Source: Muribaculaceae bacterium (lineage in GTDB: Bacteria > Bacteroidota > Bacteroidia > Bacteroidales > Muribaculaceae). From it: a stretch of DNA of 64,000 nucleotides. Position 1 is the stretch's first letter, and each line of letters begins with the position of its first letter. The position numbers and the translations under genes were made by a program. Below, piece after piece: positions 42,034 to 53,051 of the stretch. Under the pieces are notes generated by a model. It did no database searches. It was not told the origin of the DNA and was given only the letters and a program-made list of their open reading frames with translations. The stretch is taken from NCBI GenBank assembly GCA_017557665.1, contig JAFYYI010000083.1, positions 30,189-94,188 of the forward strand. Direction: 5' to 3'.

Positions 42034-44523
42034 ATGAACTATTCGATTACAGAGATATACAATGTGCTGGAAGTGACCGGCGGACAAATCGTTGACGAAG
42101 ATGCCATCGTCAGCCAGTTGCTGACCGACTCACGGTCACTCACCTCACCCGAAGAGACCATCTTCTTCGCGCTGCGCACCGAGGGCGGCGACGGCCACAA
42201 CTTTATCCCCGACCTCTATGGCAAGGGTGTGCGCAACTTTGTCGTTGCCAGCGACTATTATGCTATGCCCGAGTACAGTGCTGCCAACTATATCGCCGTG
42301 GATTCTCCGCTGGATGCGTTGCAGACACTGGCCACCTTCCACCGCAGGCGTTTCCGCGAACTGCCCGTCATCGGCATCACCGGCAGCCGCGGCAAGACCA
42401 CCGTCAAGGAATGGCTCTACCAGCTGCTCAAGGAGGATTACCGCATCGTGCGCTCGCCGCGCAGCTACAATTCCCAGATCGGTGTTCCCTTGTCGTTGTG
42501 GGACATCGACAACAACACCGACCTCGCCATCATCGAAGCCGGCATCTCGACAACAGGCGAGATGGACAACCTGCAGGCCATGATTCGCCCCACCATCGGC
42601 ATCATCACCAACCTGGGCAGCGAGCATAACGACGGTTTTGCCTCAATGGAACAGAAAGCCCAGGAAAAGGCCAAAATCCTGTTCAACTGCGAATGTGTCG
42701 TCTATCAGGCTGATGACCCGCTGGTGACCCACACCATCGCTCCCCTGGTCGAGAGCGACGTGGCCCTGGGCATGTCGTGGTCACGCAACCACTGTGATGC
42801 ACCGCTGCAAGTGGACCGCACCGACCGCACCGAGAACGCCACCACCCTGCACTATACCTATGATGATGAATCCAGCGAGGTCACCATACCTTTCACCTCT
42901 GACCGAGACCTGGACAATGCCATTACTTGCCTGGCAGTGCTGCTGCACCTGGGAATGGACCGCGAAGTCATCTCCGAGCGCATGGCAGTGCTCACGCCGG
43001 TAGGCACACGTCTCAACGTCATCGAGGGTGTGAACGACTGCACGGTGATTGTGGACAGCTACACCAGCGACTACAACTCCCTGACGCCGGCCTTGAACTT
43101 CATGACGCGCCGTGCCGGCAATCGCCCGTGCACCGTCATCCTGAGCGACCTGAGCAACGAGAGTTACAGCGGCGACGAACTGTACATCCGCGTGAGTGAG
43201 TTGCTCAAGACCAAGCGAGTGAACCGCCTCATCGGCATCGGCAAGGACATGTGCCGCTACCAGCGCTATTTCAGCGACGTGCCGCAGTCCCATTTCTTTG
43301 ACGACACGCAGGACTTCATTAGCCACTTCGCCAAGGGAGACTTCGACGACGAGACCATCCTCATCAAGGGTGACCCACGGTTCGGTTTCAGCCAGATCAT
43401 CAACCTGCTGGAAGCCAAGGAGCATATCACCGTCATGGAGGTGGACCTGAATGCCCTCGCCCACAATTTCAAGTTCTTCAAGTCGCTCATCAAACCCAGC
43501 ACCAAGACCATCGGCATGGTCAAGGCCAGCGGTTATGGCGCCGGCAGTTACGAGATTGCCAAGACGCTGCAGGACTGCGGCTGCGACTACCTCGCTGTCG
43601 CCGTGCAGGACGAGGGTGTGGAACTGCGCAAGGCGAGCATCACCATGCCCGTTATCGTGCTCAATCCTAACGGTGTGAACTACAAGGCGATGTTCCAGTA
43701 CAAGCTGGAACCCGAGCTTTACAACCTGGATATGGCTCATGACCTCATCAAGGAGGGAAAACGCTATGGCGTGAAAGGTTTTCCCGTTCACATCAAGATT
43801 GACAGCGGCATGCACCGCCTGGGCTTTACCCGGGACCAGCTGCCCGAACTCATCGCGATGCTCAAGAGCCAGGACGTCATCACTCCGGCCTCGGTGTTCA
43901 CCCACCTGAGTGTCGCCGACGAGCCAGATCAGGACGCCTACACCCAGGCACAGTTTGACTACTTTGATGATTGCAGCCAACTGCTGTTGCAGTCATTCGA
44001 CCATCATATCATGCGCCACGCCCTCAACACGAGCGGCATCGTGCGCTTCCCCGAGCACCAGTACGACATGGTGCGCATCGGTATCGGCCTTTACGGCATT
44101 CGCACGTTGTTTGATGGCAGTGAGGACTCACTGAAACCCGTTTCGGCACTGCGTTCCATCATCATCAGCATCAAGGAATGGCCCGCCGGAACCACCGTGG
44201 GCTACAGCCGCCGCGGCGTGCTTGAACGCGACAGCCGCATCGCCACAGTCAACATCGGCTATGCCGACGGCTTTGACCGCCACTTTGGCAACGGACATGC
44301 CAGCATGTGGGTGAGCGGCAAGTTGTGTCCCACTGTGGGCAACGTGTGCATGGATGCTGTGATGATCGACGTGACCGATGTGCCCTGCAAGGTGGGCGAT
44401 ACGGTCGAGATATTCGGCGAGCACGTGCCCGTCGAGCAGTTGAGCGAAGCACGCGGCACAATCCCCTACGAAATCCTGACCAGCATTTCGCCCCGCGTGA
44501 AGCGCGTTTATTATCGAGAATGA
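42034..44523 (+). CDS. murF-alr: Bifunctional MurF ligase / alanine racemase
   Basis: 829 residues in two enzymes. The N-terminal half (about 1-455) is a Mur ligase with the ATP loop GITGSRGKTT. It adds D-Ala-D-Ala to UDP-MurNAc-tripeptide, although its GKT-distal motifs are divergent. The C-terminal half (about 460-829) is a PLP alanine racemase with VKASGYGAGS (Lys497) and GYSRRG plus VNIGYADGF. The fusion couples D-Ala supply to its use and is characteristic of Bacteroidota. Its stop overlaps the next ATG (ATGA). Confidence 0.95.
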   Translation: MNYSITEIYNVLEVTGGQIVDEDAIVSQLLTDSRSLTSPEETIFFALRTEGGDGHNFIPDLYGKGVRNFVVASDYYAMPEYSAANYIAVDSPLDALQTLATFHRRRFRELPVIGITGSRGKTTVKEWLYQLLKEDYRIVRSPRSYNSQIGVPLSLWDIDNNTDLAIIEAGISTTGEMDNLQAMIRPTIGIITNLGSEHNDGFASMEQKAQEKAKILFNCECVVYQADDPLVTHTIAPLVESDVALGMSWSRNHCDAPLQVDRTDRTENATTLHYTYDDESSEVTIPFTSDRDLDNAITCLAVLLHLGMDREVISERMAVLTPVGTRLNVIEGVNDCTVIVDSYTSDYNSLTPALNFMTRRAGNRPCTVILSDLSNESYSGDELYIRVSELLKTKRVNRLIGIGKDMCRYQRYFSDVPQSHFFDDTQDFISHFAKGDFDDETILIKGDPRFGFSQIINLLEAKEHITVMEVDLNALAHNFKFFKSLIKPSTKTIGMVKASGYGAGSYEIAKTLQDCGCDYLAVAVQDEGVELRKASITMPVIVLNPNGVNYKAMFQYKLEPELYNLDMAHDLIKEGKRYGVKGFPVHIKIDSGMHRLGFTRDQLPELIAMLKSQDVITPASVFTHLSVADEPDQDAYTQAQFDYFDDCSQLLLQSFDHHIMRHALNTSGIVRFPEHQYDMVRIGIGLYGIRTLFDGSEDSLKPVSALRSIIISIKEWPAGTTVGYSRRGVLERDSRIATVNIGYADGFDRHFGNGHASMWVSGKLCPTVGNVCMDAVMIDVTDVPCKVGDTVEIFGEHVPVEQLSEARGTIPYEILTSISPRVKRVYYRE

Positions 44524-48241: not shown

Positions 48242-48649
48242 TTAGTAGGTCATGCGAGGCTCAAGTTCCTTGGCTTGGTCAATCATCTTCTGGATTTCAA
48301 CCTCGGCGGGCACGCGGCCACACAGGTGCTTCTCCTCATTGACCTCGGCCACCTTGGCGGCGAGGTTAGCGGCAACGCGATGACGCAACTCCTTGACGGT
48401 GTCAACACCGGCAGCCTCAAGCAGTTCGGCGAACTGCGGTCCGATGCCGTTGATGCGGAACAGGTCGGCATGGTTGGTCCACTTGAGAATCAGTTTCTCG
48501 CTGATACCGGTCTTCTCGGCCAGTTCCTTGCGTCCAGCAGGAGCGGCGCAGCGATCCAGCAGTTGCTCAACAGTCTCAACGCCCTCAGCAATCAGTTTGG
48601 GAGCATAAACATCTCCAATACCCTCGATGTCAATAATCTTGTAATTCAT
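48242..48649 (-). CDS. DUF4332 helix-hairpin-helix protein
   Basis: 135 residues with two helix-hairpin-helix-like repeats: IEGIGDVYAPKLIAEGVET at the N-terminus and INGIGPQFAELLEAAGVDT at about 65-83. DUF4332 proteins are predicted to bind nucleic acid non-specifically; no enzymatic motif is present. It lies downstream of the aquaporin gene on the same strand with a 33-base gap and may be co-transcribed. The cellular role is unknown. Confidence 0.87.
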   Translation of the reverse strand: MNYKIIDIEGIGDVYAPKLIAEGVETVEQLLDRCAAPAGRKELAEKTGISEKLILKWTNHADLFRINGIGPQFAELLEAAGVDTVKELRHRVAANLAAKVAEVNEEKHLCGRVPAEVEIQKMIDQAKELEPRMTY

Positions 48650-48682: not shown

Positions 48683-49393
48683 TTATTCAGCTTCCTTGCA
48701 GCAGTCGCAGCCGATGACTTTCCAGATGCAAGCTGCCAAAGCACCACCGATGAACGGGCCGACGATGAAGATCCACAGTTCCTTCAAAGCATCGCCACCG
48801 GCGAACAGAGCGGGACCGATAGAACGAGCAGGATTCACGCTTGTGCCTGTGTAGTGGATGCCCACCAAGTGGATGAGAATCAGCGACAGACCGATGGCAA
48901 GGCCTGCGAAGTTGTTGGTGGCGCCGTTGGTCTTGCTGGTCGAACCAAGCACAACAAGCACAAAGAGCATGGTGAGCACAATCTCGGCAATTAAGCCTGT
49001 GGTTACCGAAACCTTCCCGGCCGGACCGATTTCATTAAGGGTCTGCAAGCCGTTAGCACCCAGGCCACTGTCACAGCCAGCCAGCACACACAGCACTGCA
49101 GCGGCGAGAATAGCGCCAATCACCTGGAAAACGATGTACATGCCACAATCCTTGGCACTCATACGGCCACTCAGGAAACAGCCCAGCGAGATGGCGGGAT
49201 TGATGTGGCAACCGCTGATGCCGCCGATGGTGTAGGCCATGGCCACGACAGCGAGACCAAAAGCGATAGCAGTTCCGATGACTGCGGGCGTACCAGCCAC
49301 AACACCGGTGTTGCAACCCAGACTAACTGCCGCACCGCATCCCAAGAACGTCAACACAAATGTGCCAACCATTTCAGCTAAATACTTCTTCAT
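48683..49393 (-). CDS. Aquaporin / MIP-family channel
   Basis: About 236 residues with six membrane helices. The two pore motifs are HINPAIS and SVNPARS. The Arg after the second NPA and the narrow-pore residues (His and Cys/Thr around the filter) suggest an AqpZ-like water channel rather than a glycerol facilitator, but this is inference. The start MKKYLAEMVGT is chosen over an upstream Met that would add a non-conserved extension. The C-terminus CDCCKEAE has a Cys cluster. Confidence 0.9.
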   Translation of the reverse strand: MKKYLAEMVGTFVLTFLGCGAAVSLGCNTGVVAGTPAVIGTAIAFGLAVVAMAYTIGGISGCHINPAISLGCFLSGRMSAKDCGMYIVFQVIGAILAAAVLCVLAGCDSGLGANGLQTLNEIGPAGKVSVTTGLIAEIVLTMLFVLVVLGSTSKTNGATNNFAGLAIGLSLILIHLVGIHYTGTSVNPARSIGPALFAGGDALKELWIFIVGPFIGGALAACIWKVIGCDCCKEAE

Positions 49394-49445
49394 AATGCAA
49401 AGACAATTAATATTTTGGTTAAACAAGTTAATTTATCACATCATG

Positions 49446-49515
49446 TTTAGAGTTCAGGGTTTACAGTTTAGAGGGGCATTCGCACCAAAAGCCTAAGCGA
49501 TACCTAAAGTCTAAA
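49446..49515. repeat. Compound 7-bp repeat element with GC-rich core (third copy of the architecture)
   Basis: Heptamers TTTAGAG, TTCAGGG, TTTACAG, TTTAGAG (49446-49473), then GGGCATTCGCACC, then a right part with CCTAAG, CCTAAAG and TCTAAAAG. The core and right word resemble the element at 18539-18608. It lies between the divergent aquaporin and dehydrogenase genes. Confidence 0.65.
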
Positions 49516-49574
49516 AGATTGGCAAACATAGCATTTTTTTGTCTAAAGTGCAAGAAAAAAAGATAAAAACTTCC

Positions 49575-49582
49575 TATATTTG
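49575..49582 (+). promoter_or_regulatory. Promoter of the dehydrogenase gene
   Basis: TATATTTG, 45 bases upstream of the ATG at 49627. Confidence 0.65.
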
Positions 49583-49626
49583 CAGATTAATTACATAGCA
49601 AACCAAGAAAACAGAAAATAACGACT

Positions 49627-50943
49627 ATGAACGTTTCAATAGTAGGAACAGGATATGTGGGCCTGGTGAGCGGCACCTGCTTTGCCGATCTGGGTGTGAA
49701 CGTGACCTGCGTGGACCGAGACGGCCAGAAGATTAACCGCCTGGTGTACGGCGCCATCCCCATCTATGAGCCGGGGTTGGACAATATGATTAACCGCAAC
49801 GTCAACGACAAGCGCCTCGTCTTCTCCAGCGACTACAAGCAAGGATTCATCGACCAGGACTTTGTCTTCTGCGCCATCGACACCACCGCCGATGCCGACG
49901 GCTCAACCGATGTGGGTCCCATCCTAGACATCGCCAGAGATTTCGGTGAGCACATCACACACTACAGTGTGTTTGTCATCAAGTCCACCGTTCCCGTGGG
50001 CACGGCACAGTATGTGACCAAGGTCATTAACGACACGCTCGAGGCCCGTGGTGCCAAGGACATCAAGTTTGATGTCGCCAGCAATCCCGACTTCTTGACC
50101 GAGGGCAATGGCATCAAGGACTTCATGAAGCCCGACCGCATCGTCATCGGCACTGAGACGACAACTGCGCGCCAAGCCATGGAACGGCTCTACCGCACAA
50201 TCCTGATGCACAACAACCGCAACGTCATCTATACCGACACGCGCACTGCCGAGATGATCAAGTATGCCGCGACATCGATGCTTGCCACCCGTGTGAGCTT
50301 CATGAACGAGATTGCCAACTTGTGTGAAATTGTGGGCGCCGACATCAACGTGGTGCGTCACGGCGTGGGAACCGACAGCCGCATCGGCCCCAAATACATC
50401 TTCCCGGGCTGCGGCTATGGCGGCACGCTGTTCCCCCAGGACATCAACGACCTGATCAAGATTGGCAGCGAGCACAACTATGACATGGAGATTCTCAAGG
50501 CCGTGGAGAACGTGAACGCGCGCCAAAAGCGCATCCTGTTCAAAAAACTGAACAACCACTTTAAGGGCGACCTCGAGGGCAAGACCGTAGCCCTGTGGGG
50601 ACTGAGTTTCAAGCCCGAGACCGACGACATGACGATGGCGCCCGCCATCGACACCATCAACCTGCTGATGGAAGCCGGCTGCCAAGTGCGCGTCTATGAT
50701 CCCGTCGCCATGAATGCCACCAAGCGCCGCTGGAGCAATGTGTATTGCGGCTTGGACATGTATGACGCTGTCAAGGGCGCCGATGCCGTGCTGCTGCTCA
50801 CCGAGTGGCGCCAATTCCGCATCCCCGCATGGCAGACCGTTAAGAGCCTGATGCACACGCCGGTAGTTATCGACGGCCGCAACGTGTATGACGGCGACGA
50901 ACTGCAGGATCTCGGTTTCACCTACTACTGCATCGGCCGCTGA
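49627..50943 (+). CDS. UDP-glucose 6-dehydrogenase homologue with altered active site
   Basis: 438 residues with the full three-domain architecture of UDP-glucose/GDP-mannose dehydrogenases: a GTGYVG NAD loop at residues 7-12, KSTVPVG, and a C-terminal domain ending in the typical DGRN.YD...FTYYCIGR. The active site is not canonical. The nucleophile block is GGTLFPQD (Leu268, Gln271) instead of GGSCFPKD. The KYAAN block is KYAAT (Thr216 for Asn). The NPEF block is NPDF (Asp155). Lys212, Glu159 and Asp272 are retained. Reading frame and length are intact, so it is not a pseudogene. Normal two-step oxidation to UDP-glucuronate is doubtful. Confidence 0.85.
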   Translation: MNVSIVGTGYVGLVSGTCFADLGVNVTCVDRDGQKINRLVYGAIPIYEPGLDNMINRNVNDKRLVFSSDYKQGFIDQDFVFCAIDTTADADGSTDVGPILDIARDFGEHITHYSVFVIKSTVPVGTAQYVTKVINDTLEARGAKDIKFDVASNPDFLTEGNGIKDFMKPDRIVIGTETTTARQAMERLYRTILMHNNRNVIYTDTRTAEMIKYAATSMLATRVSFMNEIANLCEIVGADINVVRHGVGTDSRIGPKYIFPGCGYGGTLFPQDINDLIKIGSEHNYDMEILKAVENVNARQKRILFKKLNNHFKGDLEGKTVALWGLSFKPETDDMTMAPAIDTINLLMEAGCQVRVYDPVAMNATKRRWSNVYCGLDMYDAVKGADAVLLLTEWRQFRIPAWQTVKSLMHTPVVIDGRNVYDGDELQDLGFTYYCIGR

Positions 50944-51053: not shown

Positions 51054-53051
51054 TTAGTACTGGTACTCGGTGTCTAGGACTGTGAATTCGGTTCGGCGGT
51101 TGATTTGGTCGGCCGCCGCCTTGTCTTCCTTGCTCAAGGTCTTGATGAACTCCTCGTTTAACGTGACACCTTCCTCAAACTGGGGATACTGGCTGTGGAT
51201 GCGCTTGGTGACGGTCTTGGGCCGTGACTTGCCATAACCAGCGGGTTTGAGGCGCTCACGCGGAATGCCCTGCTCAACCAGGTAATCGACAACACTCTGG
51301 GCACGACGCTGTGACAGTCCCTGGTTGTATTTCTCGGTACCCACACGGTCGGTGTGTGAGGCCATCTCGATGACGATATTGGGATGGTCCTTCAAGAGCA
51401 TGACCATACTGTCGAGCGCGAGTTTGGACTCATCACGCAGAACGGCCTTATCAAAATCATAGAAGATGTTCTCGATAATCTGAGCCTTGAACGTCGCAGC
51501 CAGGATAAAGTCCACATTATACTCCGCGTCTTCCTCGGTGCTGTCGCTCTCAAACTCTTGACGGGCATTCAGGTAGCCATCGGCACTAGCCAGCATAGCG
51601 TACTTGACACCTCGCTGCAGGTCGAAGCGGAAAGAGCCGTCGGGCTTGGCGACAGTCTTCTGGTTGCTGCCGTCGTCACCGACGATGCGGATGACCGCAT
51701 TAGGCACCGGCTCATCGTCCTTGTCCACAACATAACCCGAGATCCATATCTGCAGGTCGGGCTTAACAAACTTGAAAATGTGGTCATAGCCACGGGCGTC
51801 GCCGCGGTTGCTGGAGAAGAATCCGCTCTCGCCCTCACCAAAGGTGATACCGAAGTCATCGGCCGACGAGTTCATCGGAACACCCATATTCTCGATGGCC
51901 CACTTGTCCAAGGAGAACTTGTCGTCCTTTTCACGGGGCTGCAACTTGGCCACAAACAGATCCAGACCGCCCATACCAGGATGGCCGTCACTGGAGAAAT
52001 ACAAGAGGCTGTCGGTGCGCACATTGGGGAAACGCTCGTTACCCTTGGTATTGATTTGCGGGCCCAAATTCTCGAGCGTACCGTGCTTGTCCTTGATGTT
52101 GATGCGCCAAATGTCCGTACCACCCTGTCCGCCGGGCATGTCGCTGGCGAAATAAAGCCAGATACCATCGGGGCTGACAGCCGGGTCGGTATAGTTGCTT
52201 AAGGTGTCGGCAGTGATTTCAAACTTTTGCGGAGCGCTCCACTTGGCCTCGCTGCGGCTACTGGTATAAATCTCTACCGTCGTGGGCCAGTCCTGACGGA
52301 CGGCACGTGCGAGGTACATGGTCGAACCATCGGGAGAAAAGGCCGCCGCTCCCTCGTCGTGCTCGGTATTCAGGCCACCATCCACGACTTCGGGACGAGA
52401 CCAGTTACCCTTTTCGTCCTTTTTGGAAAAGAAGATATCGCCCTTCTTGATGCCCGTGATTTCACTGCGCAGCTCACCGGTTGACTTGTCGTTGGTAGAG
52501 GTGAGATACAGGTACTCGTGATTCTTGTCAAGAAACATCGGGCAATAATCAGCACGGCGCGAGCTGAACAGGGAAAAGGACTTGACAATGTAGCGCGAAC
52601 CTTCCTCTTTCCACTGTGGTGCCAGTTCACAACCACGGATACCCACCCAGGCTTCCCAACTGTCGGGAGCAATGTTCAAATACTCGTTGTAACTCTTGAT
52701 GGCTGCAGAATACTGGCCATCTCGCTGCTGCGCCTGAGCCAGTCGCAGCATGATCGTCGTGTCCTCATGTTGATAACGGACGGCATTCTGGAAAGCAGCC
52801 GCAGCACGGTTGCCTTGATTGAGGCGCAAGTGGCACATACCCAACTGGAAAGCCAACTCGCCACGCAGCCAAGCGTCCTCCTTGCGATTATAGCGGTTGT
52901 ACAGCTTGCGATAGATGGTGGCAGCATCGAAGTACTCGCCACGGTCGTAAGCTTCATCGGCATCCTTGAGCTTAGGCCCTTTACAAGATGTCAACGAGAG
53001 CACTACCGATGCGAGCATCAAGCCCACCATGATATAGAGTATCCGTTTCAT
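51054..53051 (-). CDS. PorE-like OmpA-family lipoprotein (TPR, PD40 propeller, CRD, OmpA)
   Basis: 665 residues. The lipoprotein signal ends LSLTSC (Cys23). It is followed by TPR repeats (about 30-150), a beta-propeller of PD40/WD40-like repeats (about 165-415: YLYLTSTNDKSTG, STMYLARAV, IWLYFASDMPGGQGGTDIW), a carboxypeptidase-regulatory-like domain (about 425-500) and an OmpA peptidoglycan-binding domain (about 540-660, SHTDRVGTEKYN). This is the domain order of PorE of Porphyromonas gingivalis, a periplasmic T9SS component. Related proteins are common, so the T9SS role is inference, supported by two T9SS-tailed proteins in the window. Confidence 0.83.
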   Translation of the reverse strand: MKRILYIMVGLMLASVVLSLTSCKGPKLKDADEAYDRGEYFDAATIYRKLYNRYNRKEDAWLRGELAFQLGMCHLRLNQGNRAAAAFQNAVRYQHEDTTIMLRLAQAQQRDGQYSAAIKSYNEYLNIAPDSWEAWVGIRGCELAPQWKEEGSRYIVKSFSLFSSRRADYCPMFLDKNHEYLYLTSTNDKSTGELRSEITGIKKGDIFFSKKDEKGNWSRPEVVDGGLNTEHDEGAAAFSPDGSTMYLARAVRQDWPTTVEIYTSSRSEAKWSAPQKFEITADTLSNYTDPAVSPDGIWLYFASDMPGGQGGTDIWRINIKDKHGTLENLGPQINTKGNERFPNVRTDSLLYFSSDGHPGMGGLDLFVAKLQPREKDDKFSLDKWAIENMGVPMNSSADDFGITFGEGESGFFSSNRGDARGYDHIFKFVKPDLQIWISGYVVDKDDEPVPNAVIRIVGDDGSNQKTVAKPDGSFRFDLQRGVKYAMLASADGYLNARQEFESDSTEEDAEYNVDFILAATFKAQIIENIFYDFDKAVLRDESKLALDSMVMLLKDHPNIVIEMASHTDRVGTEKYNQGLSQRRAQSVVDYLVEQGIPRERLKPAGYGKSRPKTVTKRIHSQYPQFEEGVTLNEEFIKTLSKEDKAAADQINRRTEFTVLDTEYQY

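Follow-up and report, generated by a model that had tools for sequence, protein, structure and literature searches.

A UGDH homolog with leucine in place of the catalytic cysteine

The window analyzed here, a stretch of 64,000 nucleotides from contig JAFYYI010000083.1 of a Muribaculaceae bacterium, carries at positions 49627..50943 (+ strand) an open reading frame (ORF) with an ATG start, coding for 438 amino acids plus a stop, whose product is a homolog of UDP-glucose dehydrogenase (UGDH) lacking the catalytic cysteine. A Pfam scan recovers a three-domain architecture, with PF03721 (180.6 bits), PF00984 (112.1 bits) and PF03720 (104.3 bits) all above cut-off, and the match to TIGR03026 (403.4 bits; cut-off 189.8) places the protein in the UDP-glucose/GDP-mannose dehydrogenase superfamily. 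The UGDH fold is likewise assigned to it. The NCBIfam equivalog model for TuaD (NF047673), which demands more than 700 bits, is non-discriminating: the window protein reaches 466.1 bits, and the canonical UGDH P0122 also falls short at 562.3 bits.

The departures from canonical UGDHs are concentrated in a few motifs. Leu268 (50428..50430; motif GGTLFPQD, residues 265-272) occupies the position of the catalytic Cys, Thr216 (50272..50274; motif KYAAT) that of an Asn and Asp155 (50089..50091; motif NPDF) that of a Glu, while Cys268, Asn216 and Glu155 are found in 126/126 canonical relatives. On the cofactor side, Gln271 (50437..50439) replaces a Lys that contacts the nicotinamide ribose, and Thr336 (50632..50634) replaces an Arg that forms a salt bridge with the NAD pyrophosphate, as described in the available portion of PMC4794789. 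The substitutions at 155, 216, 268 and 271 had been reported in the initial annotation, and the ORF translation bears them out. They also recur in homologs: our counts draw on 275 distinct near-full-length relatives, gathered as best database hits and fetched loci and not as a random sample, which divide into 145 with Leu268, 126 with the full canonical set and four that combine Asp155 and Thr216 with a retained Cys; Asp155 and Thr216 are common to 145/145 of the distinct Leu268 sequences. At the two cofactor positions the variants are heterogeneous, with Gln in 112 and Lys in 33 of the 145 at site 271, and Ser in 63, Arg in 42, Thr in 39 and His in one at site 336. In the UDP-glucuronate-bound structure of Porphyromonas gingivalis UDP-glucose 6-dehydrogenase (PDB 3gg2) the motifs are GGSCFPKD, KYAAN, NPEF and DDMREAP, for which the window protein has GGTLFPQD, KYAAT, NPDF and DDMTMAP.

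By sequence alignment, as opposed to superposed coordinates, the Streptococcus pyogenes residues Glu141, Lys204, Asn208, Cys260, Lys263 and Asp264 correspond to Asp155, Lys212, Thr216, Leu268, Gln271 and Asp272. In the available text of PMC4794789, Glu141, Lys204, Asn208, Cys260 and Asp264 are invariant across 229 enzymes, and Lys263 is absent from that list; the other 15 of its 18 invariant residues are all present in the window protein, with the positions of Thr83, Ser117 and Gly12 varying among the 145 variants. Two features expected of the four-electron enzyme EC 1.1.1.22 are lacking, namely the catalytic Cys, which is Leu in the window protein and in the 145 distinct sequences, and the Glu141–Asn208 pair, which is Asp155 and Thr216 throughout. 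Judging from these residues, it is very probable that the window protein is not an ordinary dehydrogenase converting UDP-glucose to UDP-glucuronate.

Other active-site residues persist, in agreement with what had been noted for Lys212, Glu159, Asp272 and Cys262. Lys212 (50260..50262) is found in 145/145 variants and Asp272 (50440..50442), at the general-base position, in 144/145 with one gap. The accompanying claim of a retained NAD loop holds in part: the Rossmann glycine loop GTGYVG (residues 7-12, 49645..49662) is kept, with G7 in 144/145 variants (one gap), G9 in 141/145 and G12 in 132/145, as is Asp30; however, Asp85-Thr-Thr-Ala88 (49879..49890) stands where canonical relatives have Gly-Thr-Pro-Pro, and Thr336 has supplanted the Arg. 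Cys262, once proposed as a substitute nucleophile, was rejected in that role, being an ordinary residue that coexists with the catalytic Cys in 77/81 non-redundant canonical enzymes and occurs likewise in 52/52 non-redundant variants. A few canonical UGDHs (L039, L044, L046, L062 and L074) have Ile for Cys262 and keep the catalytic Cys.

The variant forms a clade under purifying selection

Among 397 genomes sampled from one Bacteroidales family, 73 contain a member of the clade at an E-value of 1e-180 or better (72 with Leu and one with Cys); the hosts are uncultured gut and rumen bacteria. In an order-wide sample of 393 genomes, at a limit of 1e-175 that divergent members could escape, only the center genome (G001) was matched. 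A search of the open-access literature, with subscription papers outside its scope, turned up no account of a UGDH clade that lacks the Cys.

The suggestion that the gene is under selection for something is well founded. The ratio of nonsynonymous to synonymous substitution rates (dN/dS) among variants averages 0.060 (nine genomes, 36 pairs), indicating purifying selection, and the variant dN is lower than the canonical dN in 36/36 pairs, though the canonical dN/dS is a weak control, dS having reached saturation in some of the canonical pairs. Synonymous diversity is evident at the altered sites themselves: across 73 distinct genes Leu268 is encoded by all six Leu codons (CTG 32, CTC 18, CTA 11, TTG 9, CTT 2 and TTA 1), and Thr216 by all four Thr codons. 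A sequencing or assembly error masking the Cys is rejected by the 145 distinct Leu268 sequences, the 72 genomes and the six Leu codons. More broadly, the idea of a decaying gene or an artifact, which has the lost Cys itself and nothing more in its favor, is refuted by the 73 distinct genes, their open frames, the low dN/dS and the codon usage, and we accord it a negligible probability.

Phylogeny and the order of change

The tree was built without the key columns, with plasmid-borne UGDHs as the outgroup, and rebuilt after the longest outgroup row had been dropped; it replaces a first tree, whose very distant outgroup had rooted inside the variants. The variants and four Cys-bearing intermediates form one clade (100/100), nested among canonical Bacteroidales UGDHs, and the same single clade is recovered after removal of the longest outgroup row. 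The variant is a paralog by this tree, and on our best reading it arose when a Bacteroidales UGDH was duplicated. On the tree, sites 155 and 216 change once each, sites 268 and 271 twice each, site 86 eight times and site 336 11 times; by these counts, the contacts on the C6 side of the sugar changed first, then the Cys and then, in many lineages, the residues on the NAD side. The Leu268 rows by themselves require two changes, one Leu268 protein (P0111) being grouped with the intermediates at low support; constraining these rows to a single clade is not rejected by the approximately unbiased test (p-AU 0.39), and both a single and a repeated origin of Leu are compatible with the data.

The intermediates (P0083, P0084, P0086 and L210) resemble the variants in having Asp155, Thr216 and an acidic residue at position 85, but differ from them in keeping Cys268, Lys271, Arg336, Thr86 and Pro87-Pro88. 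They can be regarded as living intermediates, in which the altered C6-side pair coexists with the catalytic Cys and intact NAD residues.

Differential relaxation of the two ligand sites

We compared the entropy of 52 non-redundant variants with that of 81 non-redundant canonical sequences at canonical-invariant sites only, excluding the catalytic ones. The sites contacting the nicotinamide and pyrophosphate of NAD (n = 10) have a mean entropy of 1.106 in the variants versus 0.367 at 128 other canonical-invariant sites (P 0.0013); those at the adenosine end (n = 8) have a mean of 0.514, with no significant relaxation (P 0.23); and the UDP-sugar sites (n = 15) have a mean of 0.098 (P 0.024 for being lower). 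The genome-derived rows alone (n = 17) give 0.893 (P 0.0027), 0.495 (P 0.17) and 0.124 (P 0.077), respectively. An earlier test against all sites (22 NAD sites, P 0.0004; 18 UDP-sugar sites, P 0.72) is superseded by this stricter one. The available part of PMC4794789 lists Thr83, Ser117, Thr118, Lys263, Arg327 and Asp29 as contacts of NAD, and Gly257, Lys320, Lys204, Arg244 and Glu145 as contacts of the sugar nucleotide. In the window numbering, Lys212, Asp272, Glu159, Arg252, Lys329, Arg418 and Asp30 are invariant in 52/52 non-redundant variants. Thus, the signature of a pseudoenzyme, in which sugar-nucleotide contacts survive the loss of catalytic and cofactor residues, is seen where the nicotinamide of NAD is bound and not in the adenosine half of the site.

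This pattern of loss and retention fits the binding of a UDP-sugar without hydride transfer, and we rather favor the interpretation that the protein is a UDP-sugar-binding pseudoenzyme. We propose that, following the duplication, the paralog gave up the four-electron oxidation. The sequences show that Leu has replaced the thioester-forming Cys, that the two residues near C6 of the sugar (Glu141 and Asn208 of S. pyogenes) were exchanged jointly on a single stem branch, and that constraint was then relaxed where the protein contacts the nicotinamide and pyrophosphate of NAD. Fixed throughout are the UDP-sugar contacts, Lys212, Asp272 and the cross-subunit Arg252, and the gene is under purifying selection. 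Such a protein might still adopt the usual dimeric or hexameric UGDH fold, bind UDP-glucose or a similar UDP-sugar and act through its bound or empty state, be it as a sensor, scaffold or regulatory partner, instead of in UDP-glucuronate synthesis. Among the options entertained in the initial annotation, a paralog with a putative regulatory role fits best: the tree supports the paralogy and the losses suggest ligand binding without redox activity.

Several observations weigh against this interpretation. Asp30, which contacts the adenosine ribose, is fixed in 145/145 variants and Thr121 in 142/145, and the adenosine end shows no significant relaxation, so that the protein may still accommodate NAD or some other adenine nucleotide. 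Lys212 and Asp272, which serve the first oxidation, are retained, and the NAD-pyrophosphate Arg336 and Lys271 persist in a minority of the variants. Further, the loop 250-268 that bears Leu268 has a predicted local distance difference test score (pLDDT) below 50 in the AlphaFold model, and the lists of NAD and sugar sites rely in part on the annotation of human UGDH.

The main rival explanation is a two-electron dehydrogenase that oxidizes a UDP-sugar at C6 to the aldehyde, or catalyzes the reverse, and stops there for want of a Cys trap, akin to the 6-aldehyde-releasing enzyme envisaged earlier. The residues for the first hydride transfer (K212, D272 and T121, with GxGYVG) are indeed in place, and the accessible part of PMC3184952 describes a human C276A mutant that was able to oxidize added aldehyde, yet with UDP-glucose as the substrate could not bring the reaction to its end. 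However, an active NAD-dependent enzyme should keep its NAD-side sites, and their free variation (T86 kept in 112, S120 in 118, R336 in 42 and K271 in 33 of 145), mirrored in the relaxed nicotinamide site, counts against this alternative, which we deem unlikely.

With Asp155, Thr158 and Thr216 altered at the sugar end and the UDP contacts unchanged, the protein may act on another sugar nucleotide, as the initial annotation had considered. A different prospect is opened by 13 sites that are fixed in both groups yet differ between them; those surrounding the sugar include E155D, K158T, N216T, S267T and C268L, and E155 and N216 changed before the loss of the Cys. These would suit a new chemistry on another UDP-sugar that is not a C6 dehydrogenation, for example, an isomerization with K212 and D272 in acid–base roles. 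Yet the genomic partners differ between branches, leaving no common neighbor to hint at a pathway, and the literature searched offered no precedent in this fold; we regard such a new chemistry as very improbable.

If the ligand-binding interpretation is true, these proteins represent a dehydrogenase that has become a UDP-sugar receptor without redox activity, and the surviving intermediates document the sequence of losses. There is also a practical corollary: as UGDH homologs are named by similarity, pathway reconstructions may credit their hosts with a UDP-glucuronate step that the gene probably cannot perform. The name UDP-glucose dehydrogenase on such proteins should be read with care, as with the Leu268 protein P0019, labeled “UDP-glucose 6-dehydrogenase” by its source.

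Canonical paralogs in the same genomes

No second UGDH was found within the window. A TuaD-type canonical UGDH (at least 66% identity to P0122) is present in 32/73 variant-bearing genomes, comprising 28/32 of those closest to the window, where the identity to P0122 is 83-100%, and 4/41 of the others. The TuaD-type enzymes of the same genomes (P0122, L081-L089) are equal in length to the window protein and 52-55% identical to it; GGSCFPKD is found in 9/9, and they adjoin an ORF that resembles a Wzc-type kinase in its motifs, a polysaccharide-locus setting that the variant does not share. A PF00984 search of ten genomes gave 31 matches, comprising ten variants, 20 further proteins that were read and all have the Cys, and one that was not fetched. 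A protein with the motif GGHCIAVD occurs in 10/10 of these genomes, and the one scanned (L249) passes the NCBIfam cut-off for UDP-N-acetylmannosamine dehydrogenase; a GGYCLPKD protein occurs in 7/10, of which L240 was scanned and matched the UGDH model PRK15057 best (566.7 bits, below the cut-off of 757).

These distributions bear on the possibility that the variant and the cell's own canonical UGDH assemble into mixed oligomers, in which the variant would be a regulatory or structural subunit. The frequent co-occurrence in the genomes nearest the window speaks for it, as does the central domain, whose sites are the least relaxed (mean entropy 0.191, versus 0.548 for the N-domain). Conversely, the paralog is rare in the more distant genomes, and in the nine genomes compared the variant and the canonical gene occur on separate contigs. 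In G184, where the variant sits on a single contig of 3.34 Mb, it is accompanied by one GGYCLPKD and one GGHCIAVD protein, with no TuaD-type enzyme. With 41/73 genomes showing no close canonical paralog, an absence that is soft as most are incomplete metagenome-assembled genomes, partnership with the canonical UGDH cannot be general, and we find this explanation improbable.

Genomic neighborhood

The variant gene is located outside polysaccharide loci. In the window it is divergently oriented to an AqpZ-type aquaporin gene (48683..49393, − strand), which codes for 236 amino acids with the Met at 49393 as the start, or 247 with an upstream TTG; its product scores above the cut-off of the MIP model and attains 217 bits with PRK05420, below the cut-off of 256. 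The 233-bp intergenic region (49394..49626) was examined in 14 aligned loci, out of 30 aquaporin-linked ones, with TTG-n-TAnnTTTG as the promoter consensus. On the − strand, facing the aquaporin, TTG-n17-22-TAnnTTTG is found in 14/14 versus 0.9% per shuffled sequence; facing the variant, on the + strand, the TAnnTTTG box is found in 14/14 versus 12% of shuffled sequences, and a TTG at that spacing in 0/14. Promoter-like boxes are therefore present on both strands, but the full element is confined to the aquaporin side. The sequences are related and the shuffles mononucleotide.

Across 55 variant loci of more than 5 kb, AqpZ is divergent within 610 bp in 30 (within 250 bp in 28), glpA is head-to-head within ~320 bp in 12 and neither is so placed in 13; the glpA and glpB of L147 exceed their NCBIfam cut-offs. 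Neither AqpZ nor glpA was seen at any of 70 canonical loci, which are mostly from other genera, include L013 and L150 from the same place and are not a matched control. The downstream neighbors depend on the branch, with phosphofructokinase, the type IX secretion system (T9SS) protein PorE and others flanking single branches. A functional operon was rejected on account of these differences, which likewise lead us to infer no glycerol or osmotic pathway from the neighbors. We read the aquaporin–variant context as mostly inherited synteny, perhaps with shared regulation, and not as a pathway.

Against this background, one may tentatively picture, as a doubtful but conceivable specific role, a soluble UDP-glucose receptor derived from a dehydrogenase, perhaps with an adenine nucleotide in the half-site, that reports on the pool of envelope precursors, possibly with a link, in one branch, to water or osmotic balance via the divergently oriented aquaporin gene. 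By analogy, UgtP of Bacillus and OpgH of Escherichia coli are UDP-glucose-dependent moonlighting regulators, which bind UDP-glucose and report the sugar-nucleotide pool, going by the available portions of PMC3723540 and PMC5889556; the likeness would be one of idea only, as both are glucosyltransferases with an unrelated fold.

As for other genes, 13 of 14 variant-bearing genomes searched have one MIP gene and G184 has two. A T9SS PorE-family protein (51054-53051, − strand; NF052230, 893 bits, cut-off 600) adjoins the variant in the closest relatives only. Among the closer variant loci, nine to 11 share a 135-residue protein (48242-48649, − strand) with weak helix-hairpin-helix-like matches, and farther upstream the window codes for a MurF-Alr fusion (42034-44523, + strand; PRK11930, 1048 bits, cut-off 804).
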